A DNA stretch of 44,764 nucleotides, from NCBI RefSeq assembly GCF_001854805.1, contig NZ_MBLO01000045.1, forward strand, positions 2,614 through 47,377. The letters run 5' to 3'. The stretch is from Pseudofrankia coriaricola (GTDB taxonomy: Bacteria; Actinomycetota; Actinomycetes; Frankiales; Frankiaceae). The position numbers and the translations under genes are program-made. Numbering within the stretch: position 1 is the first letter of the stretch; the number at the start of each line of letters is the position of its first letter. The notes under the pieces are model-generated. The model saw nothing but the letters and a program-made list of their open reading frames with translations, made no database searches and was not told where the DNA came from. Shown piece by piece: positions 4,497 to 36,524 of this stretch.

Positions 4497-5438
4497 TCAG
4501 GCCGGGTACCAGCTAACCGGCCCGGCCACGATCGAGTGGCTGGTCAGCTGGCGGCCCAGGGTGGACTGGGCCTCACGAGCAGCCTCGATGATCAGCTCGA
4601 GGTCGAGACCGGTGTCGACCCCCATCTCGTGGAGCATCGAGACGAGGTCCTCGGTGGCGATGTTGCCCGTCGAGCCAGCCGGCACCGGGCAGCCGCCCAG
4701 CTCGCCGAAGCTGGACTCGAAGCTGGTGCAGCCCGCCTCCAACGCCGCGTAGGCGTTGGCCAGGCCCTGACCCCGGGTGTTGTGGAAGTGCGCGGTGACC
4801 TCGATGCCGGGCAGCCGCTCGATGGCCGCCGTAAAGAAGCGCGAAGCGTACGCCGGGTTGCACATGCCAGTGGTGTCGCCGAAGCCGATCTCGGTGGCCC
4901 CGGCCTCCGCGAACCTCTCGGCGAGATCCAGCACCCGACTCATCTCGACCTTGCCCTCGAACGGACAGCCGAACGAGGTCGCGATTATCGCGCACAGCCT
5001 GAGACCCTCGGCCAGAATCCGCTTTCCCATGACCTGGACGCCGGCCACGGTCTCCTCGACCGTGCGGTTGATGTTGCGCTTGTTGTGCGTCTGGGACGCG
5101 GAGACGAACAGCGCCGCTTCCTCGAAGAACTCACGTTCACGCAGCGCGTTGTCGAGACCGCGACTGTTGGGGACGAGCACCATCCGGGCGACGTCGCCGG
5201 GCACGTCGATGCCGCGCAGCACTTCGGCCCCGTCCGCGAGCTGCGGGATGACGTCGGGCCTGACGAAGCTGGCCACCTCGATCCGCTTGAAGCCTGCGCG
5301 TCCCAGGGCGTTGACGAGCCGGATCTTGTCCGGGGTCGGGATCCTCTCCGGCTCGCTCTGGAACCCGTCGCGAGGTCCGACCTCGCGGATGTGCACGCGT
5401 CGGGTCTCTCCGTCGGTCGCGTTGGGGTAGCTGGTCAT
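4497..5438 (-). CDS. Hydroxymethylglutaryl-CoA lyase-like enzyme
   Basis: A 313-aa TIM-barrel lyase of the HMG-CoA lyase branch of the DRE-TIM family. It would cleave a 3-hydroxy-3-methylglutaryl-type CoA thioester into acetoacetate (or an analogue) and acetyl-CoA. Seen: REVGPRDG near residues 18-25 (catalytic Arg-Asp), SFVRPDVIPQLAD at 58-69, GCPFEG at 157-162, GDTTG near 188-192, the metal-binding HFHNTRGQ at 217-224 and the cysteine loop GGCPxxxGSTGNIATED at 248-264. The AGGAGG sequence fits the ATG at 5438 better than the overlapping GTG at 5441. It lies 12 bases after the ligase stop, so the two are probably translated together. A longer-chain 3-hydroxy-3-alkylglutaryl-CoA, as in acyclic terpene or leucine catabolism, is possible. 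Confidence 0.85.
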   Translation of the reverse strand: MTSYPNATDGETRRVHIREVGPRDGFQSEPERIPTPDKIRLVNALGRAGFKRIEVASFVRPDVIPQLADGAEVLRGIDVPGDVARMVLVPNSRGLDNALREREFFEEAALFVSASQTHNKRNINRTVEETVAGVQVMGKRILAEGLRLCAIIATSFGCPFEGKVEMSRVLDLAERFAEAGATEIGFGDTTGMCNPAYASRFFTAAIERLPGIEVTAHFHNTRGQGLANAYAALEAGCTSFESSFGELGGCPVPAGSTGNIATEDLVSMLHEMGVDTGLDLELIIEAAREAQSTLGRQLTSHSIVAGPVSWYPA

Positions 5439-5450
5439 CACACCTCCTGA

Positions 5451-7385: not shown

Positions 7386-7431
7386 GAGTGGTTCCGTTCG
7401 ACGACGAGGTGGACACTGCGCGCGGTCCGGC

Positions 7432-8643
7432 TCAGAACCGGCTGCGCGCTCTGCGGGCGGCCGGGGTTGTGGCGGATGTGCGTGACGGCAGGCCGACGGT
7501 GGCCTTGCCAGGCATGACGTCCTCGCCGCGCTGGTTGCGCGCGAAGGTCGTGACGTGGACGAGGGACTCGCCGTCCTCCGACACCTCCTTGCCGACCACT
7601 TCGCCGCCGAGCTCGATCACATCGGAGAGGTAGACAAAGCCCCGGTACTGCGAATCCAAGTGCTTCACCCAGCCAGCGTCACCCACCCAGTGAGTCATCA
7701 GCTGGATTTGCCAGCACTGACGCTGGAAGCCCACGTCATACTGGAACGCGACGCCCATCGCATTGGCGGCCGCCCGGTTGTAGTGCACCGCGTAGATCGG
7801 CTCCTGCGCACCGGTCGTGGGGTCACGAAAAGACCATGCAGGGTGAGCTGCGTAGTCGACAAGCGACGCCGCGTGCGCCTTCAGCCGGGGGATCGGGGTG
7901 CCGCCCCCGGCGATGAACGCGACCTCGTCGGTGAGCCCGACCGGGCCCTTGGTCAGGCGCGAGACGGTGTCGCCGACCTCGACGTCCTCGAAGTAGCGGG
8001 GCTCCTCACCACGCGGCTGCTCCGTAAGAACCTGCTTCTCGACCTCCTCGATCTCCCCAGAGGTCCACGGGTGCGGAATCGTCAGGGGCTTGCGCTCGCT
8101 GTTGTTCTTGCGCGCGGTGGCCCGTTCGTAATTCACGACCTGCCAGCGGATCTCGGCGACCGTCTCCCCAAGCTGGTTGGTGTAGGAGTTCGTGAAGTGG
8201 TCGGTGACCATCTGCCGCGCGAACGACGACGGCCGCGGGCCTGTGAAACCGTCGTAGCGGCAGCTCGCGGTGATGGTGTCACCCCAGTAAACCGGCCTGA
8301 ACAGGTCCATGTCGGTCGCCGAGTGGAAGGAGCCCAGACCCGGCCAGCCGAACTGAATGCCGGAGAAGCAGCCGATGACAAACGACGGCGGCGCTACCGG
8401 CGCGCCGTAGTCCGAGGCCCGACCGCGCTCGGCGTCGGTCCAGAGCTCGTTGACGTCCCCTATGCCGCCGGCGAACTTCGCGACCGCGATCCGCGTGGCT
8501 TCCTCGTTGTTCACCGAATGACCGATACGCAGGTCCACCCCAATCTTCGCCCGCATCGACTCCATCATTTCCTCGCCAATGACAGCCTCCGGCATACGTG
8601 CCTCGGACGTCGAGGTCGGAAGTGACGAGTTTTCGGTGCTCAC
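7432..8643 (-). CDS. Double hot-dog MaoC-like protein (FAS1-DH-like N-terminus)
   Basis: A 403-aa protein with two hot-dog units, roughly residues 20-165 and 215-380, as in two-domain MaoC-family acyl-CoA hydratases. The N-terminal unit carries GDVNELW at 62-68 where active R-hydratases have GDxNPxH, so the usual catalytic His is replaced by Trp. I see no clear Asp-His dyad in the second unit. It may work as a hydratase with other residues or as a partner subunit. The GTG start at 8643 has AAGGAG eight bases upstream. It is transcribed away from the DUF35 and thiolase genes and leads the operon that continues to 3470. In steroid side-chain degradation a MaoC hydratase works with a DUF35 protein and an SCP2-thiolase-like aldolase, so a similar partnership is plausible. 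Confidence 0.75.
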   Translation of the reverse strand: MSTENSSLPTSTSEARMPEAVIGEEMMESMRAKIGVDLRIGHSVNNEEATRIAVAKFAGGIGDVNELWTDAERGRASDYGAPVAPPSFVIGCFSGIQFGWPGLGSFHSATDMDLFRPVYWGDTITASCRYDGFTGPRPSSFARQMVTDHFTNSYTNQLGETVAEIRWQVVNYERATARKNNSERKPLTIPHPWTSGEIEEVEKQVLTEQPRGEEPRYFEDVEVGDTVSRLTKGPVGLTDEVAFIAGGGTPIPRLKAHAASLVDYAAHPAWSFRDPTTGAQEPIYAVHYNRAAANAMGVAFQYDVGFQRQCWQIQLMTHWVGDAGWVKHLDSQYRGFVYLSDVIELGGEVVGKEVSEDGESLVHVTTFARNQRGEDVMPGKATVGLPSRTSATTPAARRARSRF

Positions 8644-17812: not shown

Positions 17813-18259
17813 TCACTTCGCCAGCTGCGCAACGATGCGCAGGCGCAGCTCGGGACATGAGTCATCCGATTCCGAGCCCTGGTGCGCACGCCACCACACG
17901 CCCAGGTCGTGGCTGGCCTGAGCGAGGATCTCCGCGGCCTGCGTGTAGCGCGCGTTGACCTCGGCGAACGTCTCCAGAGGACCGTCGCTCAACGAGCGGA
18001 TCCGCCGGGCGAGGTCGGCGAAGTGGTCCCTTCTGTCGCCATCGGCCCCGACCCACTCGTCGATGTCGGCGAGCAGCCCGACGACGAGGTCGGTGCGGTG
18101 CCGCACCCGGAGCGCCGCGTCGTCCCAGTCGATCTGCGCGAGGACGGCTCGGATCTCACGCAGGCGTGCGCGCGCGAAGTCCGAGCGCACCTCCGGCTCG
18201 ATGACGTCCCTGAGTACGGCGCGGACCCCGGCGATCGTCTCAGCGGGTGTCGGTCGCAT
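17813..18259 (-). CDS. Small helical protein, candidate partner of the APH-type kinase
   Basis: A 148-aa protein, mostly predicted helix, with no catalytic motif I recognise. It begins two bases after the stop of the phosphotransferase gene and has a long purine ribosome site (GGAGGGAAGG) before ATG 18259, so the two are translated as a pair. Size and placement recall LvaB, the small protein needed by the LvaA kinase of Pseudomonas levulinate catabolism, and the small uncharacterised proteins found beside similar kinases in actinobacteria. The N-terminal pattern (RPTPAETIAGVRAVLRD) loosely fits that group. This relation is an inference I could not test. Confidence 0.6.
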   Translation of the reverse strand: MRPTPAETIAGVRAVLRDVIEPEVRSDFARARLREIRAVLAQIDWDDAALRVRHRTDLVVGLLADIDEWVGADGDRRDHFADLARRIRSLSDGPLETFAEVNARYTQAAEILAQASHDLGVWWRAHQGSESDDSCPELRLRIVAQLAK

Positions 18260-18261
18260 TC

Positions 18262-19314
18262 CTACCTTCCCTCCGCCGCGAGGACCGCCGCGAGGACCCT
18301 CCGGACGAGGCCGTCGGACGGCGGCTGTGGTCGGTCGGTGGTGCCGAGGGCGAAGTTCCGCGCCGCGGTCACCGCGATGACGGCCAGTCGGAAGGCCGAC
18401 ATGATCTGCCAGAATTCCAACGCCCTCCGGTTGATCTCCAAACCCGTCCGTTCGGTGTAGCGGCGCAGGAAGTCCTCGACCTCCCACCTGCCAGGGATGA
18501 AGTGCTCGTGCGTGTAGAGCGTCGTCGTGTACCAGCCGAGGTCGTCGAGCGGATCACCGAGGTGGACCAGTTCCCAGTCGAGTACGACGGAGAGCTTGCC
18601 TTCGTGGACCAGGACGTTGGCCGGGCGGAAGTCGCCGTGCACCACCACCATCCGGGCCGGCGGCGGCGGGGGGTTGTCGCGCAGCCACGCCGCGACCGCC
18701 CGCAGACCGGGCTCGGGTTCGATCTGCGCGGCGTCAAGCCTACCTTCCCATTGCTCCAGCTCCTGCAACGCGGGCTCGGGACCCGGGTCGGGCAACACTC
18801 CCTGGACTCCGGTCTCGTTCGCGTCGATCACGTGCAGCTGACCCAGAGCATCCGCCAACGAGGCCGCGAAGGCTGACTGACCTTCCGTACCCAGTCTGAG
18901 TGGATCGTTCGGCCGCAGCACCGCACGGTGCGCTGAACCCTCGCAGCGTTCGACGATCATCGCGGGCCGGAGCAGCTGCTCGCCGGTGTCGTCGAGCCAG
19001 TGGACCCGCGGGCTGGGCATGCCGGTTCTCGCCAGGTGCTTGAGCACGGCGAACTCGGCCACCCGTTGCGTCTCGACCACGTCGGCGGGCGGATCTCGCC
19101 GCATCAGGAGTCGGTGGACAGACCGTTCGCCGTTGTCGGCCCAGACCGCGTCGAAGGGCCAGTTCTCCCTCGAGGCACCGCCACCGGAGCGACGCAGGTT
19201 CGTGACCTCAGGCTCGGCCCCGTCTGGGAGGTTCGCGCGCAGGAACGCCGTGAGCGCCTCGACGACGGCGTCAAGCTCCGGGGCGGCCGCAGGCTGGACG
19301 GCCACAGCGTTCAC
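18262..19314 (-). CDS. APH/ACAD10-like phosphotransferase (possible hydroxyacyl-CoA kinase)
   Basis: A 350-aa protein-kinase-like fold of the aminoglycoside-phosphotransferase family. The catalytic loop HGDFRPANVL has H226, D228 and N233, and the metal-binding VLDWE has D246. An N-lobe segment RRSGGGASRENW near 41-52 occupies the Gly-rich-loop position. Members embedded in fatty-acid operons include LvaA and the kinase domain of ACAD10/ACAD11, which phosphorylate 4-hydroxyacyl-CoA. Its setting near an acyl-CoA dehydrogenase, with a small protein directly behind, favours such a role over antibiotic resistance. The GTG start overlaps the preceding stop by four bases (GTGA). Confidence 0.8.
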   Translation of the reverse strand: MNAVAVQPAAAPELDAVVEALTAFLRANLPDGAEPEVTNLRRSGGGASRENWPFDAVWADNGERSVHRLLMRRDPPADVVETQRVAEFAVLKHLARTGMPSPRVHWLDDTGEQLLRPAMIVERCEGSAHRAVLRPNDPLRLGTEGQSAFAASLADALGQLHVIDANETGVQGVLPDPGPEPALQELEQWEGRLDAAQIEPEPGLRAVAAWLRDNPPPPPARMVVVHGDFRPANVLVHEGKLSVVLDWELVHLGDPLDDLGWYTTTLYTHEHFIPGRWEVEDFLRRYTERTGLEINRRALEFWQIMSAFRLAVIAVTAARNFALGTTDRPQPPSDGLVRRVLAAVLAAEGR

Positions 19315-20438
19315 GGGCCGGCCTTGTACTTCGCCGCGACCGCCTCCGGGTACTTGGTGTAGCCGGGGAGGACCACGTACTGCATGACGCCGTAGCCGAC
19401 CTGGCCCTCGTGCCGCACCTCGAACAAGTGGTCGCTGCCCGCCTTGGCGTAGCGGTAGATCTGGCTCTCGTCGGTGAGGTCCCAGGTCTCGTGCTCCAGG
19501 CTCTCCTCACCCTTCCAGTGGCCCTGGAACCACCCGTTCCAACCCTCGTACCCGCCACCGCGCAGGTGGGCGCGCCCAGGGTGGGCCTTGAGTTCGAACT
19601 CCATCGCGCGGCCCGACTCCAGCGTGAGCGTGATCAGTCCGCCGTCGAGAGCCGGGGCCGGGGCGCCGTGGATCCACTGGAGGTCGTGTTCCACCCCGAT
19701 GATCGCGTCGTCGTCGGCGGGAGCGCCGAAGCGTCGCCCGATACCTGCGGTCAGGTGCGTCAGCCGACCGGGCTGGTCCTCGCGGATGTAGACGTGCACC
19801 CCGAACTCGGGCAGCTGGAAGGGGCAGAACATCGCGAACTTCCACTTTGGGCGGTCGGCCGGCTGCGCGCCCTGCACGCGCGGCAGCGGGCGGGTACCCC
19901 AGGAGTGGTCGCGCTCGCCCCACCAGGTCTCCGGCGTCAGGGTCCATTCGCCGGTGGGTCCCTGCAGCGTGCCCGCTCCGCGCCCCATCTGCGCGTAGCG
20001 GGCCGCGTCGTAGACGACCCGGCTCCGGGCCACCTCGAAGTGCCGATCCTCCAGGATCGGCTCCTGGTCACTGGTCCAGGTGATGTCGAACGCCAGGCCG
20101 GACGGGTTGTCGTCGAGGATGAACCGGATCTCCTCGTACGGTTTGACGATCTCGGCCCGGAGCGGACCGACGGCCATCAGATCATTGCGGGGCGAGAGCG
20201 CACGGGCCATCCGAACATTGGTCTGCGTGTCCCCGTGAGCCAGGACGGCGTAGGCCTCCTGGGTGTCCTGGTTGGGGTAGTGGCCCAGCCCCAAGGTCAG
20301 CACGGCGTCCTTGGACCGGACGTCCTGAAAGCTCACCCAATACCGCTCGCGCCAGCTCGGGTCGCTCGACGCGACCATCGCGTGCGGGTAGGAGACCTGG
20401 TGATAGAAGTACTCGTCAGGCGGACTCAAACGCACCAT
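19311..20438 (-). CDS. CrtC/AttH lipocalin-like protein
   Basis: A 375-aa protein with no signal peptide or membrane segment. Its aromatic-rich beta-strand composition and WGERDHSWGTRP motif (residues about 170-181) recall the two-lipocalin fold of carotenoid 1,2-hydratase (CrtC) and AttH-like proteins. Hydration or isomerisation of a double bond, or lipid binding, are possibilities. ATG 20438 is preferred because conservation-like sequence (VRLSPPDEYFYHQ) begins there; the frame is open upstream to 20597 but that portion is Ala/Arg-rich. It overlaps the kinase gene by four bases, implying a joint function, and starts 139 bp after the crotonase stop. The family link is from memory of the motif and is uncertain. 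Confidence 0.55.
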   Translation of the reverse strand: MVRLSPPDEYFYHQVSYPHAMVASSDPSWRERYWVSFQDVRSKDAVLTLGLGHYPNQDTQEAYAVLAHGDTQTNVRMARALSPRNDLMAVGPLRAEIVKPYEEIRFILDDNPSGLAFDITWTSDQEPILEDRHFEVARSRVVYDAARYAQMGRGAGTLQGPTGEWTLTPETWWGERDHSWGTRPLPRVQGAQPADRPKWKFAMFCPFQLPEFGVHVYIREDQPGRLTHLTAGIGRRFGAPADDDAIIGVEHDLQWIHGAPAPALDGGLITLTLESGRAMEFELKAHPGRAHLRGGGYEGWNGWFQGHWKGEESLEHETWDLTDESQIYRYAKAGSDHLFEVRHEGQVGYGVMQYVVLPGYTKYPEAVAAKYKAGP

Positions 20439-20577
20439 TTCATTCCCATCTGCTGTCGGCCACCGTGCGGTGTGAGTGTGTGGTGGACCGACAAAGGCCC
20501 TCCACGACGCGGCAGCCTGCAACGCCTGCTCTGGGCGCGCACCCTGCCGCCGCTCGGCCGCGGCCGCCTGGAGCTCC

Positions 20578-21444
20578 TCAGCGGCCCTGCCACACACCCG
20601 GACGCTTCTCGCTCAGCGCGGCTACCGCCTCCCGCAGGTCCTCGCTCTGCGTGGTGATCGCCTCCAGGTAGAAGCCGGTGTCGAAGCACTGGTCGATCCG
20701 TGACGCCAGGGCCTTGTTCAATGTCCGCTTTGTCAGCTGCACCGCCACAGGCGGGAGCGCGGCCACCTGCCGCGCGAGCTCGAAGGCGAGCGGGCCGACC
20801 TCTTCGGGGGTTTCGACGAGATCGCTGACCATCCCGAGCTTCCACGCGTCCTCTGCGAGCAGCCACTCACCCCACAGCAGGTGACGCTTGGCTCGCGCCA
20901 GGCCGAGGTGGCTCGGCCACATCACAGCGCCACCGTCACCCGCCACCAGGCCGAGCTGGACGTGCGGGTCGGAGAACCGCACTCCTGGCGTCGAGACGAT
21001 GCGGTCCGTGGTGAGCACGAGGCTGGTAGCGACGCCGAACACGTGACCGTGCACGGCGCTGACGATCGGCTTGGTGAAGTCGGCGAACTGCCGGAACAAC
21101 CGTCGACCAGTGTCGACGTCCTTGAGTAGCAACCGCAGATCGGCGTTGATCTGCAGCATGCGCTCCGTGTCACCACCTGCGGAGAAGTGCTTGCCGGTCG
21201 AGGTGAGCACGACGGCGTTCACGCCGTCGTCGCCCTCAAGCTCCGCGAACGCCGGTCCCAGCTCCCCGAACAGCAGCTCGTCGAACCGGTTGTGCAGTTC
21301 CGGGCGGGTGAACCGCACCTCGCCCACGGCGTCGTGCCTGTGCACCGCCAGCGTGCTGTATTCCGTCATCGTTGTGCCCGTCTGCTCGCTGCGCTGTTCG
21401 GCCAGGTCCAGGTCGTCTCCACCAGACGAGGCGTCGGCCCTCAT
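20578..21444 (-). CDS. Crotonase-superfamily protein lacking both hydratase glutamates
   Basis: A 288-aa enoyl-CoA hydratase/isomerase fold. The oxyanion segment GKHFSAGGD and core HGHVFGVATSLVLTTD are clear. The two catalytic glutamates of true hydratases are absent: the GGGxE position reads GVATS, and the second Glu reads His in SDPHVQLG. An Asp in VAGDGGA may serve instead, as acidic residues in this loop do in isomerase-type members. ATG 21444 overlaps the racemase stop (ATGA); the family-like sequence starts at a second ATG, 21369 (MTEYSTLAV), which would shorten it by 25 residues. Isomerase or other CoA chemistry is likelier than hydration. Confidence 0.75.
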   Translation of the reverse strand: MRADASSGGDDLDLAEQRSEQTGTTMTEYSTLAVHRHDAVGEVRFTRPELHNRFDELLFGELGPAFAELEGDDGVNAVVLTSTGKHFSAGGDTERMLQINADLRLLLKDVDTGRRLFRQFADFTKPIVSAVHGHVFGVATSLVLTTDRIVSTPGVRFSDPHVQLGLVAGDGGAVMWPSHLGLARAKRHLLWGEWLLAEDAWKLGMVSDLVETPEEVGPLAFELARQVAALPPVAVQLTKRTLNKALASRIDQCFDTGFYLEAITTQSEDLREAVAALSEKRPGVWQGR

Positions 21445-22577
21445 GGGGCGGAGGCCACCGCGACGCCCTGCTGCGTCAGGTCGTCGATCTCGTCAGCCGT
21501 CAAGCCCCAGTCCCGCAGCGCGTCGACGGTGTGCTGCCCAGGTCGAGGGGCTCCAGCCGAGACCGCACCCGGCGTCCGGGAGAACCGGGGCGCCGGGGCG
21601 GGTTGCGGGACGCCGGCGACCTCCACGAACGTGCCGCGAGTGCGGTTGTGCTCGTTCTGGGGCGCCTCGGTGAGCCGGAGGACAGGAGACACGCAGGCTT
21701 CGGTCCCGGCGAAGTGAGCGGTCCATTCCGCGCGCGTCCGGATCTTGAAGACCTCCCGGAACCGCTCACGCATCGCCGGCCAGGAGGACTGGTCGTCCTG
21801 AGGCCCGACGGTTGCCGGGTCCAGGCCAAGGCCGTCGAGCAGCGCGGCGTAGAACCGGGGCTCGATCGCGCCCACGGCGACGTACTCACGGTCCGAGGTC
21901 TCGTACGTGTCGTAGAACGGGGCGCCACCGTCGGTGAGGTTGACACCTCGCTCGTCGACCCACCACCCCTCCGCGATCATGCCGTGCAGGCACGAGGTCA
22001 GCAGGGCGGCACCGTCCACCATCGCGGCGTCAACGACCTGGCCTCGGCCACTGCGGGCCCGTTCGACGAGCGCCGACACAAGACCGACAACGAGCAGCAT
22101 TCCGCCACCGCCGAAGTCTCCGACGAAGTTGACTGGCGGCACGGGCCGCTCGCCCACCCGGCCGACTGGGTGGAGCGCACCTGCGATCGCGATGTAGTTG
22201 ATGTCGTGGCCGACCTCCGGGGCCAACAAGCCGGTCTGCCCCCAGCCGGTCATCCGTCCGTACACCAGCCTGGGATTGTGCTCCCAGCAGTCCTCCGGGC
22301 CGATGCCGAGGCGCTCGGCAACCCCGGGTCGGTTGCCCTCGACGAGGATGTCGGCGTGGGCGACCATACGCAGCAAGGCGCCGCGCCCCGCGGGCTTCTT
22401 CAGGTCAAGGATCGCCGAGCGCTTCCCACGCCCCAGCGTGAGCGGCGCCTCCAACTCCCGCGAGGGCCGGTCGATGCGAAGCACGTCAGCACCCATGTCG
22501 GCCAACATCGCGCAGGCGAACGGGGCCGGCGCGAGACTCGCGAGCTCGATCACGCGCACACCAGCTAGCGGACCCAT
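21441..22577 (-). CDS. mcr: Alpha-methylacyl-CoA racemase
   Basis: A 378-aa family III CoA-transferase fold of the racemase branch, which interconverts 2R- and 2S-methylacyl-CoA so that acyl-CoA dehydrogenase can act. Diagnostic residues correspond to those of mycobacterial MCR: H124 in GHDINYIA, D154 in NFVGDFGGG and E239 in AIEPRF. GWGQTG precedes the His. Length matches the family. GGGAGG stands five bases before ATG 22577. It lies 81 bp after the thiolase gene and overlaps the crotonase. Its presence implies a methyl-branched (isoprenoid or steroid-like) acyl chain. Confidence 0.9.
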
Positions 22578-22658
22578 GGCACCCTCCCAGGAGACGGCGG
22601 CGGACGAGCCTCGAACGGGAGCTCGGTGCGCCGCGGCTCACCGGTCCCGGTCGATCGG

Positions 22659-23885
22659 TCAGACCCGTTCGATGATCGTCGCGGTGCCCATGCCGCCGCC
22701 CGTGCACATCGTGATCAGGCCAATCGTCTGGTCGCGGCGCTCGAGCTCGTCCAGGACGGTCTGGAACAGGACCGCTCCGGTCGCCCCGATCGGGTGACCC
22801 AGCGCGATCGCACCACCGTTCACGTTCACCCGGCTTTCGTCGATCTTGAGGTCACGCATCACCTTCATCGGGACGGCGGCGAAGGCTTCGTTGATCTCCC
22901 ACAGGTCGATGTCCGCGACGGACATCCCGGCCTTGGCCAGGCATGCCTCGGAGGCCGGTCCCGGCGCGGTGAGCATGATGACCGGATCCGCGGCGGCCAC
23001 GGTTCCGGCCACGACGCGAGCCCGAGGTCGCAGACCGTGGGCCCGGGCATAGGCCGGCGACGCGAGCACCATCGCCGCGGCAGCGTCCACGACGCCGGAG
23101 GAGTTGCCGGCGTGGTGAACGTGATCGATCCCGGTGACCTCGGGGTACACCACAGCACACCGCTCGTCGTAGCTCCGGCCCTCGGGCTGGACCTCGGCCC
23201 CCAGCGCGACGAAGGCCGGCTTCAGCTTCGCGAGCGACGCGACGGTCGTGCCCGGCCGCGGGTGCTCGTCCCGGTCGAGCACAACCTGGCCGGTCGCGTC
23301 CTTGACCGGCAGAATGCTCCTGTCGAAGGCGCCGTTCTCCATGGCCGCCGAGGCCCGGTCCTGGCTGCGCACCGCGAAGGCGTCGAGCTCAGACCGGGTG
23401 AACTTCTCTCGCGTGGCGATCAGGTCCGCGGAGATCCCCTGCGGCACCAACGGATAGAGGTCGAGCAGGCGGTCGTTGCCGGCCGCCGTCGGCGTGGTGA
23501 TGCCGCCCGGGTACCGGGACATGGACTCGACGCCGCCGGCGACGACGAGATCCTGCCAGCCAGCCGCGATGCCCATCGCGGCAAACATGATCGCCTGCTG
23601 CCCGGATCCGCAGAACCGGTTGAGGACCACGCCGGGAATCTGCTCCGGCCATCCCGCGGCGAGGACCGCCAACCGGGCGATGACGTTGGCGTGGTCACCA
23701 TCTGGGTTGCCGTTCCCCATGATGACGTCCTCGACCGCCGCGGGGTCGATCCCGGCGCGTTCGACCAGGCCGTTGAGCACCTGCGCCAGCAGCTCCTGCG
23801 GATGGATGTCGTGGAGCCCGCCCCCCGGCTTGCCCTTGGCCCGGGGAGTACGGGCCCCGTCGATGATCCACGCTTCGTTCACCAT
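22659..23885 (-). CDS. Acetyl-CoA acyltransferase (thiolase, FadA type)
   Basis: A 408-aa degradative thiolase for thiolytic release of acetyl- or propionyl-CoA from a 3-ketoacyl-CoA. Catalytic residues are visible: Cys92 in [10 protein letters not shown], His364 in GHPIGATG and Cys394 in [22 protein letters not shown] in the middle resembles FadA5-type steroid thiolases. Two consecutive ATG codons occur (23888 and 23885); GGAGG is two bases before the first and five before the second, so I chose 23885. The crotonase stop overlaps both, so translation is coupled. Confidence 0.9.
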
Positions 23886-24664
23886 CATTGCCTCCGATCA
23901 GACCAGACGGACCAGTCTCTGGGTTGAGTCGAGCCATCCGGGCGCCCGAGGGCGCTCGAGCTTCCCGCGGGCGACGATCCGGACCGCCGCGCCACCTCCG
24001 CCCGCAGCAGGTCGGCGGAGCCGACGACATCGTTGAACGCCGACCGTGCACGCTCGAGTGCCGAGGGCCGACAGCCTGCCAACGTCGAGGCGAGCTCCAG
24101 CCCGGCATCGACGAGGTCAACCGGCTCGGCCAGCCGGTCGGCGAGGCCGGCGGACCAGGCGGTCGCGGCGGGCACCCGCTCCCCGAGGAGCACCATGCGA
24201 CGTGCCAGCGACAGGCCGACCCGTGCCACCAAGGAGCGGTAGGTGTACTCGCCCACACGGATCCCGAGCGGGATCTGCGGGAGCGAGAAGTAGGCGTCGG
24301 TTCCGGCGACAACGAGGTCACCACACAGCGCGAGCTCCACGCCCCCGCCGATCGCGCCTCGCTGCACGCACACGACGACCGGGACCGGGCACCTCGTCAC
24401 CTCGTCGAACAAGGAGACCAGGTCGACGAGGTAGCCTCGGAACTCGTCCGCGGTCAGGGCCGCCGCCTCCGAGTGATCGCCACCGGCGCAGAAGTGCTTG
24501 CCCTGCGCCGACAGCACGACGGCCGAGCCGAGATCGGTCGCGTCACGGATCGCCTCCCGGAGGTCTGACACCAGCTGCGGCCCCAGCGCGTTGTTCCGCT
24601 CCCCGTCGGCCAACTGGACGTGGGCGACGCGGCCGTGCCGGCTGACGACGACCAGGCCGGTCAT
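23885..24664 (-). CDS. Enoyl-CoA hydratase/isomerase family protein
   Basis: A 259-aa crotonase-fold protein. GKHFCAGGD supplies the oxyanion hole and RGAIGGGVELALCGD keeps the first hydratase glutamate (GGGxE). The second glutamate position reads Gln in SLPQIPLG. Many such one-glutamate members are isomerases or act on unusual acyl-CoAs. ATG 24664 overlaps the acyl-CoA dehydrogenase stop by four bases, and its own stop overlaps the thiolase start, placing it mid-operon. The reading frame is open far upstream to 24886, but that lies inside the dehydrogenase gene. Confidence 0.8.
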   Translation of the reverse strand: MTGLVVVSRHGRVAHVQLADGERNNALGPQLVSDLREAIRDATDLGSAVVLSAQGKHFCAGGDHSEAAALTADEFRGYLVDLVSLFDEVTRCPVPVVVCVQRGAIGGGVELALCGDLVVAGTDAYFSLPQIPLGIRVGEYTYRSLVARVGLSLARRMVLLGERVPAATAWSAGLADRLAEPVDLVDAGLELASTLAGCRPSALERARSAFNDVVGSADLLRAEVARRSGSSPAGSSSALGRPDGSTQPRDWSVWSDRRQ

Positions 24665-25818
24665 GACTGCGTCCCCGCGGCCGCGAACTCGGCGCGCCCG
24701 ATGATCAGGCGCAGCACCTCGGACGTCCCCTCCCCGATCGAGAACGCCTGACTGTCGCGGAAGAAGCTGAGAACCGGTCCCTCGTCCGTGAAGCCGATGC
24801 CTCCGTGGAGGTGGAGCGCCGCTTCGGTCGCGTCGTTGGCGAGCTCGGAGGCCGCGAGCTTGGCCATCGCCGACTCGGTGGAGCACCGCTGGCCCGCGTC
24901 GAACATGTCGATGGCCCGCTCCATGAGCAGCTGCGCGCCGTCCAGCCGCACGCGTAGGTCGGCGATGCGGGCCAGGACGACATCGTTCGTCGATAGCGGA
25001 CCGCCGAAGGAGTGCCGGTCCTGCAGGAAGTCCACCGTCGACGCCAGGACGCTCTTGGTCATGCCGAGGCAGATCGAGGCGACGCCGATGCGGCCGAACT
25101 CGACCATCGCCATCATCTGGTAGAAGCCGCGCCCCTGCTCGCCCATCAGGCGCTCGTCCGGGACGAAGCAGTCGTGAAGTTCGAACCAGCCGACACCGGC
25201 CGCGCGCAGGCCCAGCGTGCTGTGTCGACCTCCGAACTTGAAGCCCGGGTCGTCCCTGCGCACGATGAACATCGACAGCCCGCGGCGGGGCGGGCCGTCA
25301 GGGTCGCTGCGGGCGCCGACGAGGACGAAGTCGGCGTTCGCCGCGTTGTCGATCAGCCGCTTGCCGCCGTTGAGGACCCAACCGCGGTCGACGCGGATCG
25401 CCGTCGTCCTGAGTGCGGCGGCGTCCGAGCCGCCGTGAGGCTCGGTCCAGCCCACGGCCCCGAGCGACTCGCCGCTGGCGGCCAGGGGCAGCAGCTCGGC
25501 CTTCTGGGCGGCCGACCCGAATCGGTGCAGCAGCAGTCCGCTCAGGTTGGACCAGGTCGCGGCGACGGCGCCGGTCGGCCATACCCGCGAGAGTTCCTCC
25601 TGCTGGATCGCGAAACCGCGCAGTCCGTCGTCGGCGCCGCCGTACTCCCGCGGAAGCGCCCGTCCGAAGCATCCGGCCTTGGCCATCTCCCCGCGGATCT
25701 CGGGGGTGATCTCCTCGCGCTCGTCGGCCGCCGGCACGAACGGCCTGATCCGCTCGGCCAGCCGCCGCATGCGATCACGGTGGGCTGCCTCCCACTCGCG
25801 CCGGGCCTCGAGCGCCAT
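24661..25818 (-). CDS. Acyl-CoA dehydrogenase
   Basis: A 385-aa FAD enzyme that would introduce the alpha,beta double bond. Seen: WTEPHGGSDAAALRT (FAD/substrate loop, about 125-139), the LHLHGGIGFTDEGPVLSFFRD region and IGEGTSEVLR near the C-terminus with the Glu position of short/medium-chain enzymes. The family is used for branched substrates and, in the LvaC/ACAD10-11 group, for dephosphorylating isomerisation of phospho-acyl-CoA. ATG 25818 is chosen because AGAGG lies seven to eight bases upstream; two GTG codons at 25827 and 25824 are alternatives. It heads the operon 24661-20578, with an AT-rich promoter region just upstream. Confidence 0.88.
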   Translation of the reverse strand: MALEARREWEAAHRDRMRRLAERIRPFVPAADEREEITPEIRGEMAKAGCFGRALPREYGGADDGLRGFAIQQEELSRVWPTGAVAATWSNLSGLLLHRFGSAAQKAELLPLAASGESLGAVGWTEPHGGSDAAALRTTAIRVDRGWVLNGGKRLIDNAANADFVLVGARSDPDGPPRRGLSMFIVRRDDPGFKFGGRHSTLGLRAAGVGWFELHDCFVPDERLMGEQGRGFYQMMAMVEFGRIGVASICLGMTKSVLASTVDFLQDRHSFGGPLSTNDVVLARIADLRVRLDGAQLLMERAIDMFDAGQRCSTESAMAKLAASELANDATEAALHLHGGIGFTDEGPVLSFFRDSQAFSIGEGTSEVLRLIIGRAEFAAAGTQS

Positions 25819-25906: not shown

Positions 25907-27022
25907 TCACAGACCCAGCTTCGCCGCCACGGTGTCCAGGTGGTCGTCGACGACCGCCAGCAGGCGGGCGGACGACACCGCGCGCTTCAGGAACAGGTGG
26001 GCGTCGTGCTCCCAGGTGTAACCGATGCCGCCAAGCACCTGCAGCAGGCTCGACGCCGTGCGCTGGAACGCGGTCGACACCGACGAGCTGGTCATCGCGA
26101 CCAGGAGTTCCTCGTCCTGGGCAGTTGCCTCGGCGAGGGACCAGGCGGCGTAGTACACGACCGACCGGCTGGACTCGACGGCGACGAACATGTCCGAACA
26201 ACGGTGCTTGATGGCCTGGAAGGCCCCGATCGGCCGACCGAACTGCACCCGCGAGCCGGCGTAGGCGACCGCCATGTCCAGGCAGGCCTGCATGCCACCG
26301 AGCTGCTCTGCGGTCATGATGACCGTGGACACCAGTCGCGCGCGGTCCAGCGACCGGACGTCGCCCGCCGCACCCACTAGCTGCGCTGGGGCGGCGTCCA
26401 ACGACAGGATCCCGAGCGGCCGGGTCGGATCAAAGGCTTTCGACGGCGTCGCGACGAACCCTGCCGCGTCCTTTGACACCGCGAACAGCGCCGGACCGCC
26501 GGTGGTGGCAGCGACGACGAGGACGAGGTCGGCGGTCGCGGCGTCGACGACCGCGGTGCACGTCCCCGAGAGGCTCCAGTTACCCGCCGCGTCGCATGCC
26601 GCGTCGACGGTGCCGTCACCTCCCCGGACTCGGCCGGGTTCGCCGCTCGCGACGGTGGCCGTGATCGCCCCGGCGGCGATCTTCGAGAGCAACTCCTGCC
26701 GGACGAGCCCGTCGGCCGCCTCGAGGAGCGCCGGCACGGCCAGGCCGGCCGTAGCGAACAGCGGCGAGCACAGCAGGTTGCGCCCGGCCTGCTCGAACAG
26801 CACGACCTGCTCGACCAGACTCGCCTCGGACCCGCCCGCACCCTCCTGGACGAGGAGTCCGGACAGGCCGAGCCCTTCAGCCAGCTCGGCCCACAGCCTC
26901 TCGTCGTAGGCACCGTCGCCGTCAACGAACCGACGACGGTGGTCGGCGCCGACGCGGCTGCCGAAGAAGTCCTCGAGCACTTCCCGGAACGAGCCCTGCT
27001 CATCGGACAGTGCGAATCGCAT
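25907..27022 (-). CDS. Acyl-CoA dehydrogenase, smaller subunit of a probable pair
   Basis: A 371-aa acyl-CoA dehydrogenase fold with degenerate motifs: the middle domain is rich in Ala/Gly/Val without a clear WxTEPxxGSD loop, while the C-terminal domain has SRVQFGRPIGAFQAIKH and LGGIGYTWEHDAHLFLKRA. Such proteins typically form alpha2beta2 complexes with a second dehydrogenase encoded next door, as ChsE1-ChsE2 do in cholesterol degradation. Its ATG is 11 bp after the stop of the 413-aa dehydrogenase. MRFALSDEQGSFREVLEDFF at the N-terminus is family-like. Confidence 0.83.
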   Translation of the reverse strand: MRFALSDEQGSFREVLEDFFGSRVGADHRRRFVDGDGAYDERLWAELAEGLGLSGLLVQEGAGGSEASLVEQVVLFEQAGRNLLCSPLFATAGLAVPALLEAADGLVRQELLSKIAAGAITATVASGEPGRVRGGDGTVDAACDAAGNWSLSGTCTAVVDAATADLVLVVAATTGGPALFAVSKDAAGFVATPSKAFDPTRPLGILSLDAAPAQLVGAAGDVRSLDRARLVSTVIMTAEQLGGMQACLDMAVAYAGSRVQFGRPIGAFQAIKHRCSDMFVAVESSRSVVYYAAWSLAEATAQDEELLVAMTSSSVSTAFQRTASSLLQVLGGIGYTWEHDAHLFLKRAVSSARLLAVVDDHLDTVAAKLGL

Positions 27023-27033
27023 GTACAGCTCCT

Positions 27034-28275
27034 TCAGCTGGTCCGAGGGACTTTCACGCGCGGCTCACGTGGAAGACCGAGAACCTGCTCGCCGATCGTG
27101 TTCCGCTGGATCTCCGACGAACCGCCGTAGATGGTCGTCGGGCGGGCATGAAGGAAGTCGTAGGTCCACACGGCCGTGGACGTCGGGTCGATACCCGCGG
27201 GGTGAGGACCGAGCACCGCGAGGCCGGGGGCACCCGACGGCGCCAGGATGCCGCGGCCCGCGACGTCGAGCGCCAGCTCGGTCACCTGGTGGCGGTACTC
27301 GGAGGTCACCAGCTTGGTGATCGACGACTCCGGGCCGGGTGGCTCGCCCGAACTGCCGCTGGCCAAGGCACGTAGCGCCAGACAGTGCAGGGTGTGCACG
27401 GTCGCGCGGCAGGCCGCGATCCGTCGCCGGACGGCCGTGTCGCTCGCGCGGCCCGTGCGGCGGGCGAACTCGACCAGACGATCCAGCTCCGCACGCGCCT
27501 CGAGCGCCGCCGCGACACCGCCCGCCCCGCGTTCGTAGCCCAGGAGCGTGATGGCCACCTTCGACCCGTTGCCGACACCGCCGACCACGTTCGAGGCGGC
27601 CGTGCGTGCGTCGGTGAAGAAGACCTCGGCCAGCTCGGTGTCGTCGGCCATCGACCGGATTCCGCGGACGTCGACGCCTGGCTGGTCCATCGGGAGGAGC
27701 AGGAACGACAGCCCCTTGGACCGCTCCGCCTCCGGGTCGGTGCGGGCCACCAGGAAGATCCAGTTGGCGTCGAGGCCGCCGGACTGCCAGACCTTCTGGC
27801 CGTTGACGACCCACTCGTCGCCGACGAGACGGGCCTGGGTCTTGACGTTGAAGAGGTCAGAGCCCGCCTCGGGCTCGGAGTAACCCTGGCACCACCGCAC
27901 CTCACCGTCGATCGTCGCCTGGAGGAACTGTTTCTTCTGCTCGTCGGTGCCCCAGTGCAGCAGGGTCGGTCCGAGCAGCACCAGGCCGGAGGAGTCGGTC
28001 GAATGCGGGTAGCGAGGAACACCCGCCCGAGCCAGTTCCTCCGCCAGGATCGACTCACTGATCAGGTCCCGCCCGCGGCCGCCGAACTCCTCGGGCCATC
28101 CGGGTGCGAGAAGGCGCACCTCCCGCAACGAATCGCGCCACCAGGCCAGCCAGGAAGCTCGCTCGCTCGCCTCGACGTCGCCGGAGCCCCGCCAGTCGGA
28201 CGGGAACACGCTCGAGATCCACTCTCGTACCTCGAGACGGAAAAGCTCCGCTTCCTCGGAATAACGCAGGTCCAC
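27034..28275 (-). CDS. Acyl-CoA dehydrogenase, larger subunit of a probable pair
   Basis: A 413-aa FAD enzyme. QGYSEPEAGSDLFNVKT is the FAD/substrate loop, NGQKVWQSG follows, and IYGGSSEIQRNTIGEQVLGLPREPR is the C-terminal signature of the FadE subgroup whose members pair with a smaller subunit. Together with the next gene it probably forms a heterotetramer acting on a bulky or branched acyl-CoA. It starts at a GTG (28275) with only a weak GGGTGAG site, 55 bp after the hydratase stop. Confidence 0.86.
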   Translation of the reverse strand: MDLRYSEEAELFRLEVREWISSVFPSDWRGSGDVEASERASWLAWWRDSLREVRLLAPGWPEEFGGRGRDLISESILAEELARAGVPRYPHSTDSSGLVLLGPTLLHWGTDEQKKQFLQATIDGEVRWCQGYSEPEAGSDLFNVKTQARLVGDEWVVNGQKVWQSGGLDANWIFLVARTDPEAERSKGLSFLLLPMDQPGVDVRGIRSMADDTELAEVFFTDARTAASNVVGGVGNGSKVAITLLGYERGAGGVAAALEARAELDRLVEFARRTGRASDTAVRRRIAACRATVHTLHCLALRALASGSSGEPPGPESSITKLVTSEYRHQVTELALDVAGRGILAPSGAPGLAVLGPHPAGIDPTSTAVWTYDFLHARPTTIYGGSSEIQRNTIGEQVLGLPREPRVKVPRTS

Positions 28276-30317: not shown

Positions 30318-30719
30318 TCACGCGGAGAGATCGGCACCGAAGTCTTCGACCTGGCGTGGGTCGAAGTAGTCGCGCCAGTAGCGGATCTTGCCGTCGACGA
30401 CCTCGAAAACACCCATCAGCTCCATCTTGTGGATGCGCTCGCCCGCTTCGTCGAGAAACCAGTCGATGCGCTCGGTCAGCACCTTCGTACCGTTGGAGGC
30501 GACGTTGACCACCTCGATCTCGTTTGTGTACTTCAGCGCGTCCAGGTGGGACCTCACGAGCGCGAGGATGGCCTGCTTACCGCTCTGGTTCGGGAAGCCG
30601 GGGCCGGGCGCAAAGACGGCGTCATCGGCGAAGAGCTCGTCGATCGCATCAATGAAGCCGCCCTTGAGGGGCATCTTCGCGAACAGCTCCTGCACCACGT
30701 CTGCGGGTTCAGCACTCAT
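30318..30719 (-). CDS. Limonene-1,2-epoxide-hydrolase-like protein (NTF2 fold)
   Basis: A 133-aa NTF2/SnoaL-fold protein. The C-terminal half closely follows Rhodococcus limonene epoxide hydrolase: TERID gives R84 and D86, GVFEVVDGKI follows, and WRDYFD gives W115 and D117, which together match the catalytic Asp-Arg-Asp triad. The Tyr and Asn that hold the attacking water in the Rhodococcus enzyme are replaced by Phe and Pro in AVFAPGP (34-40), so the active site is altered. AGGAAGG lies upstream of ATG 30719. It is 52 bp after the GMC oxidoreductase gene and probably co-transcribed. Epoxide hydrolysis is likely but the substrate differs; another NTF2 activity is possible. Confidence 0.75.
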   Translation of the reverse strand: MSAEPADVVQELFAKMPLKGGFIDAIDELFADDAVFAPGPGFPNQSGKQAILALVRSHLDALKYTNEIEVVNVASNGTKVLTERIDWFLDEAGERIHKMELMGVFEVVDGKIRYWRDYFDPRQVEDFGADLSA

Positions 30720-33930: not shown

Positions 33931-34848
33931 TCAGAAGACGGCGAGCGGGTTGACCGGAGACCCAGTACCGCCCGGGATCCGCAGCGGGGCGATCAAGGTG
34001 AGGAACTCGTAGCTACCCACCTCGACACACACCTCCGCCAGCCTGTCGACCTGCGCGTTGTCGACCAACGCGACTCCGTAGGCCCAGATCATCGAGTGGA
34101 CGGTATGGGCGATCTCGGAGTAGCTGGGATAGGACGCGTCGTGCATGTCGGCGATCACCACCGCGAAGTCGTACTCGCGGATGAACTCCAGACAGGACAC
34201 GTCGAGGCCCGGGCGCGCGAAGTCGGTCATGTCGGCGTTCCAGACGCCCCACTGGCCCTTCTCCTCGAGCCACGCCTCGAGACCGCAGTTGATGACCAAC
34301 GCATCGCCCGGCTCCGGGGTCAGCTCGGTTTTGGCCAAGATGGCCTCCAGTTCCGCCCCGGTGACCGGGACGTCCGGTGTCACGCTCGGCGTACCGCGAT
34401 GCTTCGGAACGTCGAGCAGGACGCCCCGGGTAATGATGCCGTCGTGCCAGACGTCGACGTCGGCCCAGCTGGCTTTGTTCGCCCTGAAGACCTCGTCCAC
34501 GCGGCGTCCGTTCCACACTCCGTCCCGGTCCCAGTTGTGGTTCAGCGCGTCGATGTGCGTGCTCCCGAGGCAGTGGATCGGGAGCTGAAGGTGGTCGAAG
34601 GCGTTGCCGGTGTCCCGCCACCCGAACTGCTGGACGACCTGCCGCTGTCCTGGCTGGGGCGAGGTGCTGATCGGGCGCGCCATTGAGACCGTCCGGCCCG
34701 CGCGGACCAGGCCCAGGGCGGCGAGGCGCTTCTCGGGAGTGATCAGGTTGACCGCGCCGGCCTGGTCGTCCTCGCCCCACCGGCCCCAGTTGCGCTTCTC
34801 GACCAGCCAGGTGTCGATGTCCTCGGCGGTCCATTTCTGAACGCTCAC
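33931..34848 (-). CDS. Cyclase-family metal hydrolase (kynurenine-formamidase-like)
   Basis: A 305-aa protein of the cyclase superfamily (KynB-like metal hydrolases, including isatin hydrolase). The metal-binding motif is LGSTHIDALNH with H98, D100 and H104. WGRWGEDDQAGAVNLITPEK near residues 21-40 is typical of the longer bacterial branch. It would hydrolyse a cyclic amide, ester or 1,3-diketone-like ring. The GTG start overlaps the acyl-CoA ligase stop by four bases (GTGA); the frame is open upstream to 34989 inside the ligase gene. Placement between a ligase and a CoA-transferase suggests ring opening before or after activation. Confidence 0.82.
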   Translation of the reverse strand: MSVQKWTAEDIDTWLVEKRNWGRWGEDDQAGAVNLITPEKRLAALGLVRAGRTVSMARPISTSPQPGQRQVVQQFGWRDTGNAFDHLQLPIHCLGSTHIDALNHNWDRDGVWNGRRVDEVFRANKASWADVDVWHDGIITRGVLLDVPKHRGTPSVTPDVPVTGAELEAILAKTELTPEPGDALVINCGLEAWLEEKGQWGVWNADMTDFARPGLDVSCLEFIREYDFAVVIADMHDASYPSYSEIAHTVHSMIWAYGVALVDNAQVDRLAEVCVEVGSYEFLTLIAPLRIPGGTGSPVNPLAVF

Positions 34849-36524
34849 ACCCGCTGTCCCTTCTCGTCGGTGCCCCGCTCGGGCTCCGGACCCGTCGCCG
34901 CCTCGGTGGCGAGGAACTCGGCCTTGACGGTCTTCTTGTCGATCTTCTCGCCGGCCAGCGTCGGCAACCGGTCCGTACGGATGGACCACCGGGTCGGGAA
35001 GGCGAAGTAGGCGACGGCTCCCCGGAGGAATGTCGTCAGGTCCTCGGGCGTCACGGTGACGCGTTCCTTCGCGACGACGACAGCGGCCACCTCCTCACCC
35101 AGGTCCGCGTGCGGGATGCCGAAAACGGCGACTTCGAGGACCTCTGGGTGCCGCGCGATCGCCATCTCCACGTGCCCGGTGGCAACGTTCTCACCACCAC
35201 GGATGACGACGTCCTTGCTACGACCGTCGAGGTAGAGGTAGTTGTCCTCGTCGAGGTGCCCGAGATCGCCGGTGTGCAACCAGCCCTCGCTGTCGACAGT
35301 CTCGTCGTCGAGCCCCAGGTAGCCGAGCATCACGGTAGGGCTGCGGACCAGCACCTCGCCGGACCCGGTCCCGTCGGGGTCGAGGATGCGCAGTTCGGCC
35401 ACCGGATACGGTCGTCCGACCGTACCCGGTCGCTGCTCCAGGTCCTTGTTGCCGGCACCGGTGACGAAGCCGCCCGACTCGCTCATCCCCCAGGTGTTGC
35501 CCAGTCCACGCCTCTTGAGCTGCGGGAGCTGGCGGGCCAGGCGTTCCAGGAGGGCGGGCGACACCGGGGCGCCACCAAGCGGCCACGAACGCAGGCTGGA
35601 GAGGTCGTGTTCCTCGAACGACGGGTGTTCGAGCACCCTGATGGCCATGGTCGGCACTCCGCCGAAGCTCTGCACCTTCTCGGTCTCGATCAGACGCAGG
35701 ATCTGCGCGGGATCGAACTTGCCCTCGTTGAGGACCATCTTTCCGCCGACGATCAGGTTCGTCAGCACGTTGGTCACGCCGCCGACGTGGAACAGGGGCG
35801 TGCAGACCAGCGTGACCGACTGTTGGCCGTTGGGATCGAGGCCGGCGGGCAGCCGTCGTGAGCGCATCAGCAGGTTGTGCTGGTTGGCGATCACCGCGCG
35901 CTGGGACAGCACGACGCCTTTCGGCGCACCCGAGCTCCCGGAGGTGAAGATGACGAGGGCCGGGTCGTCCTCTTCTCGAGTGGCGAAACCGTCCATAACG
36001 GCGTCCGCGTCGCCCACGGACCCTGCCTCGTACGCCGCGGCGAAGTCAGCGATCGCCAGGGCGCCGCTCATCCCGCAGGGCGCCGGATCAGGGAGGTCGG
36101 TGATCACCAGGGCCGGGCGGGTCAGCTCGAGGCTGTTGGCGAGCTCCGCCTCGCTCCACCACCGGTTGCCCAGCACCGGGGTCGCGCCAGCCTGCCAGCA
36201 GGCCCACAGCGCGAGGACCCAGTCCGGGCTGTTGTAGCCGAGGAGGAGCACGTGGTCACCCGGTTGTACGCCGCGTCCCGTGATGATCTCCCCGGCTCGC
36301 GGGAGGGCGGCCACGAATTCGCCGAAGGAGATACGGCGCTCGCCCTGCACGAGATACGTCCGCTGGGCCCAGCGGTCGGCCCCGACAAGAACGTCCCTGA
36401 GCGACCGCGGGCGCGGCTCGAAGACCAAGCCCACGTGCCCGGCGTACTCGGCGGCCACGACCGACGAGCCCCACAAGCGCGCGAGCTCGGTCACTGCGCG
36501 CTTGCGCGCGTCCGCCGTCGTCAT
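34845..36524 (-). CDS. Fatty-acyl/aryl-CoA ligase, FadD-like
   Basis: A 559-aa ANL ligase. FTSGSSGAPKGVVLSQ at 193-208 is the ATP loop, GNTWGMSESG the A5 region, GWLHTGDLGHLDEDNYLYLDGR the adenylate-ribose and hinge motifs, and EKIDKKTVK near the C-terminus holds the catalytic lysine. It lacks the ACS-type N-terminal cap of the ligase at 5451, so medium-chain, branched or cyclic acids are likelier substrates. A 161-bp spacer with an AT-rich GATAAC stretch separates it from the crotonase upstream and may hold a promoter. It overlaps the cyclase gene. Confidence 0.87.
   Translation of the reverse strand: MTTADARKRAVTELARLWGSSVVAAEYAGHVGLVFEPRPRSLRDVLVGADRWAQRTYLVQGERRISFGEFVAALPRAGEIITGRGVQPGDHVLLLGYNSPDWVLALWACWQAGATPVLGNRWWSEAELANSLELTRPALVITDLPDPAPCGMSGALAIADFAAAYEAGSVGDADAVMDGFATREEDDPALVIFTSGSSGAPKGVVLSQRAVIANQHNLLMRSRRLPAGLDPNGQQSVTLVCTPLFHVGGVTNVLTNLIVGGKMVLNEGKFDPAQILRLIETEKVQSFGGVPTMAIRVLEHPSFEEHDLSSLRSWPLGGAPVSPALLERLARQLPQLKRRGLGNTWGMSESGGFVTGAGNKDLEQRPGTVGRPYPVAELRILDPDGTGSGEVLVRSPTVMLGYLGLDDETVDSEGWLHTGDLGHLDEDNYLYLDGRSKDVVIRGGENVATGHVEMAIARHPEVLEVAVFGIPHADLGEEVAAVVVAKERVTVTPEDLTTFLRGAVAYFAFPTRWSIRTDRLPTLAGEKIDKKTVKAEFLATEAATGPEPERGTDEKGQRV

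Follow-up and report, generated by a model that had tools for sequence, protein, structure and literature searches.

The dehydration of alcohols at the expense of adenosine triphosphate (ATP) removes hydroxyl groups that lie beyond the reach of ordinary hydratases, and the question raised by one locus of the actinomycete Pseudofrankia coriaricola (assembly GCF_001854805.1) is whether a leftward gene block encodes such a system and, if so, which of its proteins carry out the two chemical steps. The block occupies positions 17813–25818 of the window, the 44,764-nucleotide stretch of contig NZ_MBLO01000045.1 (forward-strand positions 2,614 to 47,377) that was analyzed as a whole. A preliminary description had proposed an LvaA/LvaB/LvaC-like module, in which an APH-type kinase, a 148-residue helical protein and an acyl-coenzyme A (CoA) dehydrogenase would remove a hydroxyl from a methyl-branched substrate through a phosphate ester, with a racemase and a CrtC-like protein as extra parts. 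The present analysis points to a different division of labor: the three genes at 17813–20438 likely encode a two-step ATP-dependent dehydratase, composed of a kinase with an LvaB-like subunit and a subsequent phosphate lyase.

Known systems offer points of comparison. In the levulinate catabolism of Pseudomonas putida, LvaA works together with LvaB (PMC6692424). In Sterolibacterium denitrificans, 25-HSK phosphorylates the tertiary alcohol at C25, and the phosphate is removed by a separate lyase that had yet to be identified at the time; in 2021, no candidate for it was reported near the 25-HSK gene (PMC8449060). In mammalian ACAD10/ACAD11, the kinase phosphorylates a hydroxyacyl-CoA before elimination (PMC12440821, PMC11342911).

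Organization of the Core Module

The core of the block comprises three genes, which stand back to back on the minus strand in the following order:

19311–20438, minus strand: Rv3169-family protein of 375 residues, a homolog of 25-phosphosteroid lyase (NCBIfam, PDB homology)
18262–19314, minus strand: APH-family kinase of 350 residues with HGDFRPAN and DWE motifs (Pfam APH, motifs, kinase tree)
17813–18259, minus strand: putative LvaB-like, all-helical small protein of 148 residues (kinase-partner profiles, AlphaFold model)

The GTG start of the kinase gene overlaps the stop of the lyase homolog gene by 4 bases, and the kinase stop codon is separated by two bases from the ATG of the small-protein gene (at 18259), immediately 5′ of which stands the ribosome site GGAGGGAAGG. 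The kinase matches Pfam APH with 110 bits, its motifs HGDFRPAN and DWELVHLGDP are intact, and ACAD11 and Rv3168 are among the closest relatives of solved structure. The preliminary description was accurate on these points, namely the intact HGD/DWE kinase, the helical protein encoded two bases 3′ of it behind a ribosome site, and the presence of an acyl-CoA dehydrogenase (24661–25818, minus strand) in the same leftward block.

In the proposed mechanism, the kinase would transfer phosphate from ATP to a substrate hydroxyl, and the small helical protein would act as its required or activating subunit in the manner of LvaB for LvaA. The Rv3169-family protein would then eliminate the phosphate, leaving a C=C bond, and the neighboring synthetase, dehydrogenases, hydratases, racemase and thiolase would feed the product into β-oxidation. 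The hydroxyl would presumably be hindered or tertiary, and the substrate may be a CoA ester.

The Rv3169-Family Protein as Candidate Phosphate Lyase

The protein encoded at 19311–20438 falls into NCBIfam NF053593 (Rv3169 family) with 324 bits, and its solved relatives are PDB entries named 25-phosphosteroid lyase (9fzn, 9g2i, 9g4c). Homology to this lyase is found both with the single sequence (E 5.4e-35, covering residues 3–363 of 375) and with a profile of eight relatives (E 1.6e-66). The window protein carries the motif R176-D177-H178-S179-W180-G181, in which D177 aligns with the Asp of 25-phosphosteroid lyase. The Asp of the R-D-R-S-W-G motif in 9fzn is replaced by Asn in 9g4c, a deposited change which suggests, on the evidence of the entries rather than of a paper, that the depositors probably altered a catalytic Asp. 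Asp177 is a likely catalytic residue of the window protein, and the pattern [RK]-D-x-x-W is kept in 55 of 57 distinct relatives (the exceptions being L207 and L218). The AlphaFold model of the protein, with a mean predicted local distance difference test score (pLDDT) of 44, was too poor for a fold search.

Because it is a homolog of 25-phosphosteroid lyase, the 19311–20438 protein appears likelier to be the eliminating enzyme than the dehydrogenase at 24661–25818. The CrtC-like protein that had been set aside as an extra part is the likely second enzyme of the pathway.

Some members of the lyase family form a subgroup that carries K-D-R-S-W-G and in which no kinase of this type is encoded within 1.8 kilobases (kb); these are found at loci L123, L152, L153, L162 and L166, and further at L167, L172, L173 and L175.

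A Probable Small Kinase Partner Outside DUF6285

No Pfam family, DUF6285 (PF19802) included, matches the 148-residue protein, and DUF6285 proteins number zero in its own genome; the equation of LvaB with DUF6285 rests on the annotated lva-type operon of a Stutzerimonas plasmid. Orthologs of the small protein (50–52% identity) occur in Actinomadura sp. NBRC 104425 and Streptomyces sp. NWU339, both encoded directly 3′ of an orthologous kinase (62% identity) with a 4-base overlap in each case, and owing to this conservation the open reading frame is not a chance frame. AlphaFold predicts a confident all-helical bundle (mean pLDDT 90.7), for which Foldseek returned no matches at E 0.001; the best structural match reached Z 10.0, a range stated to be common among helical bundles. 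Used as a single query against 296 genomes of the phylum, the protein retrieved 8 genomes at E ≤0.01 (own genome 1.3e-93, next best 1.6e-5), while a three-row profile matched 2 of 393 genomes of the class, its own and one other at 3.2e-4.

Gene position provided a wider view. When the gene 3′ of each of 154 distinct kinases of this type was inspected, other small proteins of 126–178 residues were found besides DUF6285, and a 4-base overlap with the kinase gene was present in 8 of the 12 non-DUF6285 partners gathered by then. With the three-row profile of the window family, four other kinase partners scored 14.4 to 9.2 bits and outranked all decoys and reversed sequences, the best decoy (153 scored) reaching 4.6 bits, the best reversed sequence 5.7 bits and DUF6285 proteins at most 5.5 bits. 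The L178/L179 profile placed the window family and DUF6285 proteins on top, including the four DUF6285 proteins present among the 181 decoys assembled for the rankings with these two profiles. Profile–profile comparison related the window family to 15 other non-DUF6285 partners (97.3%, E 2.7e-11) and those 15 partners in turn to DUF6285 (94.7%, E 6.1e-8), with reversed controls at 0.3% or less.

A blind search gave a concordant picture. A profile of 12 non-DUF6285 small proteins, holding not a single DUF6285 row, was run against the 296 phylum genomes at E ≤0.001. Apart from matches in the own genome it retrieved 11 places, of which 9 are beside or fused to a kinase: 7 directly 3′ of the kinase gene and 2 at the C-terminal end of a kinase-first open reading frame, the other 2 being without a nearby kinase. 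DUF6285 proteins make up three of the nine kinase-linked places, and the same 12-protein profile gave 17.7 bits to the DUF6285 protein of the lva-type operon on the Stutzerimonas plasmid (in a set of 13). Natural fusions, with the kinase first and a small-partner-like domain at the C-terminus, are represented by L244:1426-2988 and L245:1471-2985 (also by L263 and L264), and these two hint at contact between kinase and small protein. PDB searches yielded no convincing relative for either the DUF6285 profile (best E 0.51) or the profile of partner proteins (best E 0.0014, a designed helical bundle). Taken together, the profile relations and the position of the gene after that of an APH-type kinase support placing the small protein in the LvaB superfamily in a wide sense, by way of intermediate families.

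The Partnered Branch of the Kinase Tree

For the kinase tree, rows below 110 bits or shorter than 230 residues were dropped, which left 128 kinases. One branch divides 52 of these from the other 76, with a support of 99 in the Shimodaira–Hasegawa-like approximate likelihood ratio test. A small partner, meaning one recognized by the small-partner profiles within 600 bases, accompanies 39 of the 52 kinases on one side, all 39 together, and none of the 76 on the other; the class without a partner includes kinases whose DUF6285 gene lies more than 600 bases off (for example at L102, L110 and L118). A more careful tree of 74 of the 128 rows (the 52 plus a random 22 of the 76), in which the long branches L263 and L155 meet, recovered the same split with 90/80 support and united the 22 other-side rows in 200 of 200 bootstrap trees. 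In this tree, the DUF6285-linked kinases form a single clade (100/98). The window kinase stands on the same side as L272, the kinase of the lva-type operon, and outside the DUF6285 clade, its nearest kin being L009, L010 and two Rhodococcus plasmid kinases. The side of 76 includes Rv3168-type kinases beside members of the lyase family as well as kinases beside Asp-type dehydrogenases. PDB chain 9fsg, which may be 25-HSK although its PDB name does not say so, scored 53.8 bits against the window kinase, no better than 9o56 or 3ats.

Two related kinases (L009:10507-12081 and L259:7076-9202), each beside a lyase homolog and a small partner, have lost the catalytic Asp of HGD (the sequences there being KGNNGHGEE and KGTNGLGEE) and retain DWE; judging from these motifs, they are possible pseudokinases.

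Gene neighbors were counted within 2 kb for the 64 of 133 kinases with enough flanking sequence, 69 being left out for short flanks. Among the 22 kinases with a non-DUF6285 partner, 11 have a lyase homolog in this range and none has an Asp- or Glu-type dehydrogenase; the corresponding numbers are 0 and 8 for the 14 kinases with DUF6285, and 16 and 7 for the 28 at which no partner was recognized. The Fisher values for these counts (0.002 and 0.0001) are descriptive only, since the loci were collected by searching for lyases, DUF6285, small proteins and kinases and do not form a random sample.

Alternative Explanations

Several observations weigh against reading the trio as a kinase with an LvaB-like subunit and a dedicated lyase. 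When the profiles of the window family and DUF6285 were compared directly, the result was only 17.3%, and the DUF6285 link hangs on intermediates whose joint alignment presupposes kinship. Five f81 kinases (L149, L156, L157, L158 and L160) group near the window kinase without a small protein; in L149, the gene 3′ of the kinase lies on the opposite strand and no small partner is found there, and the absence of the small protein from the f81 clusters reads as loss. The monomer of 25-HSK is active by itself (PMC8449060), and a lyase-linked kinase therefore need not have a partner. At some loci the lyase homolog has no kinase of this type in its vicinity, and half of the kinases with enough flank and a non-DUF6285 partner (11 of 22) have no lyase homolog within 2 kb; in this tally L254, L255, L273 and L274 count as lyase-negative (more than 2 kb from the kinase) though a lyase homolog is present in their clusters.

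Some of these points would be accommodated if the small protein were an unrelated helical protein, for example an operon regulator, and the kinase acted alone like 25-HSK, which would also agree with the lack of a Pfam family, the low direct DUF6285 score, the partnerless f81 relatives and the uninformative fold search. Such an accident would nevertheless have to account for a blind search that retrieves places beside or fused to kinases, for the strong profile match to other kinase partners and for a kinase tree in which recognized partners occur on one side only, and we regard it as improbable.

About equally improbable is a pathway in which the kinase and small protein make a 4-phosphoacyl-CoA that is handed to an LvaC- or ACAD10/11-type dehydrogenase encoded elsewhere, with the Rv3169-family protein otherwise employed. 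The own genome does hold several Asp-type dehydrogenases (for example L124–L126 and L128–L130), one such enzyme standing beside another kinase–small protein pair (L134/L258). However, it is the lyase homolog gene that overlaps the kinase gene by 4 bases and that adjoins the kinase in L009, L010 and others, and the 22 flanked kinases with non-DUF6285 partners are all devoid of an Asp- or Glu-type dehydrogenase within 2 kb.

The original assignment of phosphate elimination to the acyl-CoA dehydrogenase at 24661–25818 fares worse. Over 91 aligned dehydrogenase rows, the catalytic column is Asp in dehydrogenases near many other kinases, the lva-type operon enzyme carrying IYDGPSEVH; in the block, this column is Glu in the 24661–25818 protein and Leu and Gly in the other two dehydrogenases, the catalytic Asp of the LvaC/ACAD10-ACAD11 type being absent from all three. 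The gene shares the block with the kinase but lies more than 4 kb from it, and the nearest solved relatives of its product are ordinary butyryl- and other short-chain acyl-CoA dehydrogenases. With Glu instead of Asp and with such relatives, it was rejected as LvaC, and a role as the eliminating enzyme is very unlikely. Glu by itself is compatible with a part in such a pathway, because some DUF6285 operons have a Glu-type dehydrogenase as well: Glu occupies the Asp column of LvaC in the adjacent dehydrogenases of the actinomycete DUF6285 operons L103, L105, L109, L111, L116 (called by pattern only), L117 and L119, and a Glu-type dehydrogenase is present at 7 of 14 flanked DUF6285 loci, which runs against a simple rule.

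An antibiotic-modifying phosphotransferase that happens to lie beside unrelated catabolic genes can practically be dismissed, as membership in Pfam APH is outweighed by scores far below cut-off for all matching curated antibiotic-kinase models (best 40.8 bits, cut-off 205), by the solved relatives ACAD11 and Rv3168, and by an operon conserved across several genera.

The reading of the trio as a two-step dehydratase thus keeps one half of the LvaA/LvaB/LvaC proposal. The kinase–small protein pair is supported by the indirect DUF6285 link and the kinase tree, whereas the LvaC part is not supported, and hydroxyl removal through a phosphate ester remains the best interpretation. As to the relation of the small protein to LvaB, a Pfam match was absent, the direct profile comparison was weak and the indirect profile link was recovered; the combination that would have spoken against the proposal, no structural or profile relation to LvaB and a kinase clustering with antibiotic or choline kinases, is not what the data gave.

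Genomic Setting and Possible Substrate

The remaining genes of the block, together with a synthetase gene farther along the window, are as follows:

20578–21444, minus strand: crotonase-family protein, true start probably 21369; its position next to the module is conserved in L009 and L010 and in five f81 clusters
21441–22577, minus strand: class III CoA-transferase/racemase family protein, the racemase of the preliminary description
22659–23888, minus strand: thiolase
23885–24664, minus strand: second crotonase-family protein
24661–25818, minus strand: acyl-CoA dehydrogenase with ATG at 25818 and the ordinary catalytic Glu (GEGTSEV)
34845–36524, minus strand: acyl-CoA synthetase; in L009 and L010, its likely ortholog (818–830 bits) immediately precedes the lyase gene

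The catabolic region around the block contains more dehydrogenases, CoA ligases, a GMC oxidoreductase, an aldehyde dehydrogenase and an ABC transporter. In other genera, too, the lyase, kinase and small-protein genes are direct neighbors: the order in L009 and L010 is crotonase, acyl-CoA synthetase, lyase homolog, kinase and small protein, and the five f81 clusters retain the first four of these. On Rhodococcus plasmids, the module lies among β-oxidation genes, with cytochrome P450 genes in 4 of 5 annotated records; lyase homolog and small protein were both identified by profile in 3 of the 5 Rhodococcus records, and the lyase homolog also in R. opacus B4. On account of these conserved neighbors (crotonase, synthetase, β-oxidation and P450 genes), the setting suggests that a hydroxylated acid, probably a branched or cyclic one, is broken down.

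Further genes of the window may hint at the substrate, namely a row of HMGL-like, CoA-ligase and FAS1-dehydratase-like genes (4497–8643) and a limonene-epoxide-hydrolase-like protein (30318–30719). The adjacent dehydrogenases at 25907–28275, with Leu and Gly at the catalytic column, resemble a steroid-type heteromeric pair. On the plasmid of Rhodococcus sp. ZPP, a “PEP-utilizing enzyme” (L270:21452-23191) follows the small protein and a second one (L270:11153-12886) lies beside a histidine phosphatase; these are perhaps phosphate-handling parts.

Comparison with Known Systems

The module shares with LvaA/LvaB/LvaC an APH-family kinase, a small partner encoded directly 3′ and the loss of a hydroxyl via a phosphate ester (PMC6692424). 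It differs in that its small protein is longer and is not DUF6285 by Pfam, and in that the block lacks an Asp-type LvaC and has a lyase homolog of another family adjoining the kinase. With 25-HSK and 25-phosphosteroid lyase (25-PSL), it has in common the distribution of kinase and phosphate lyase over two proteins and a homologous lyase with the motif Asp kept; unlike the window kinase with its small protein, 25-HSK is an active, partnerless monomer (PMC8449060). The kinase belongs to the same wide group as that of ACAD10/ACAD11, which combine it with an Asp-type dehydrogenase domain in one chain (PMC12440821, PMC11342911), whereas in the window the parts are individual proteins and the block lacks a dehydrogenase of that type.

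The Rv3168–Rv3169 pairs of mycobacteria and relatives likewise join an APH-family kinase gene to a gene of the same lyase family, but in these the kinase gene lies upstream of the lyase gene, no small partner is recognized, and the kinases stand on the other side of the tree. Pairs of this type (L072–L100, L136–L141) may also be ATP-dependent dehydratases.

By analogy, the first step of the module probably resembles that of LvaA/LvaB and the second that of 25-HSK/25-PSL. The module belongs to neither system as defined, because DUF6285 and an Asp-type eliminating enzyme are lacking on the one side and its kinase is at most a possible 25-HSK on the other. What recurs is a new arrangement of known parts, which includes a partner family unknown to Pfam. 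Within the limited literature collection searched, no description of a kinase, LvaB-like subunit and lyase in combination was found, nor any paper describing 25-PSL as an isolated enzyme.

Implications

As a broader proposal, which we hold to be evenly balanced, LvaB would be the first known member of a wide superfamily of small helical subunits, most of them unannotated, whose presence would mark one branch of the APH-type kinases. Along this branch, the eliminating enzyme would have been swapped, being of the dehydrogenase fold with DUF6285 and of the 25-phosphosteroid lyase family with the longer partners, as in the present block. The result would be a general class of modular ATP-dependent dehydratases with which aerobic actinomycetes attack hindered alcohols when they break down lipids, terpenoids or steroid-like compounds. 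If the reading of the trio as a two-step dehydratase holds, levulinate degradation and anaerobic sterol degradation, known from different organisms, would share exchangeable parts, and LvaB would be one of a family of kinase subunits revealed by gene position where Pfam sees nothing. Many actinomycete genes now called “hypothetical” or “Rv3169 family” that lie beside phosphotransferase genes would thereby gain a testable function.

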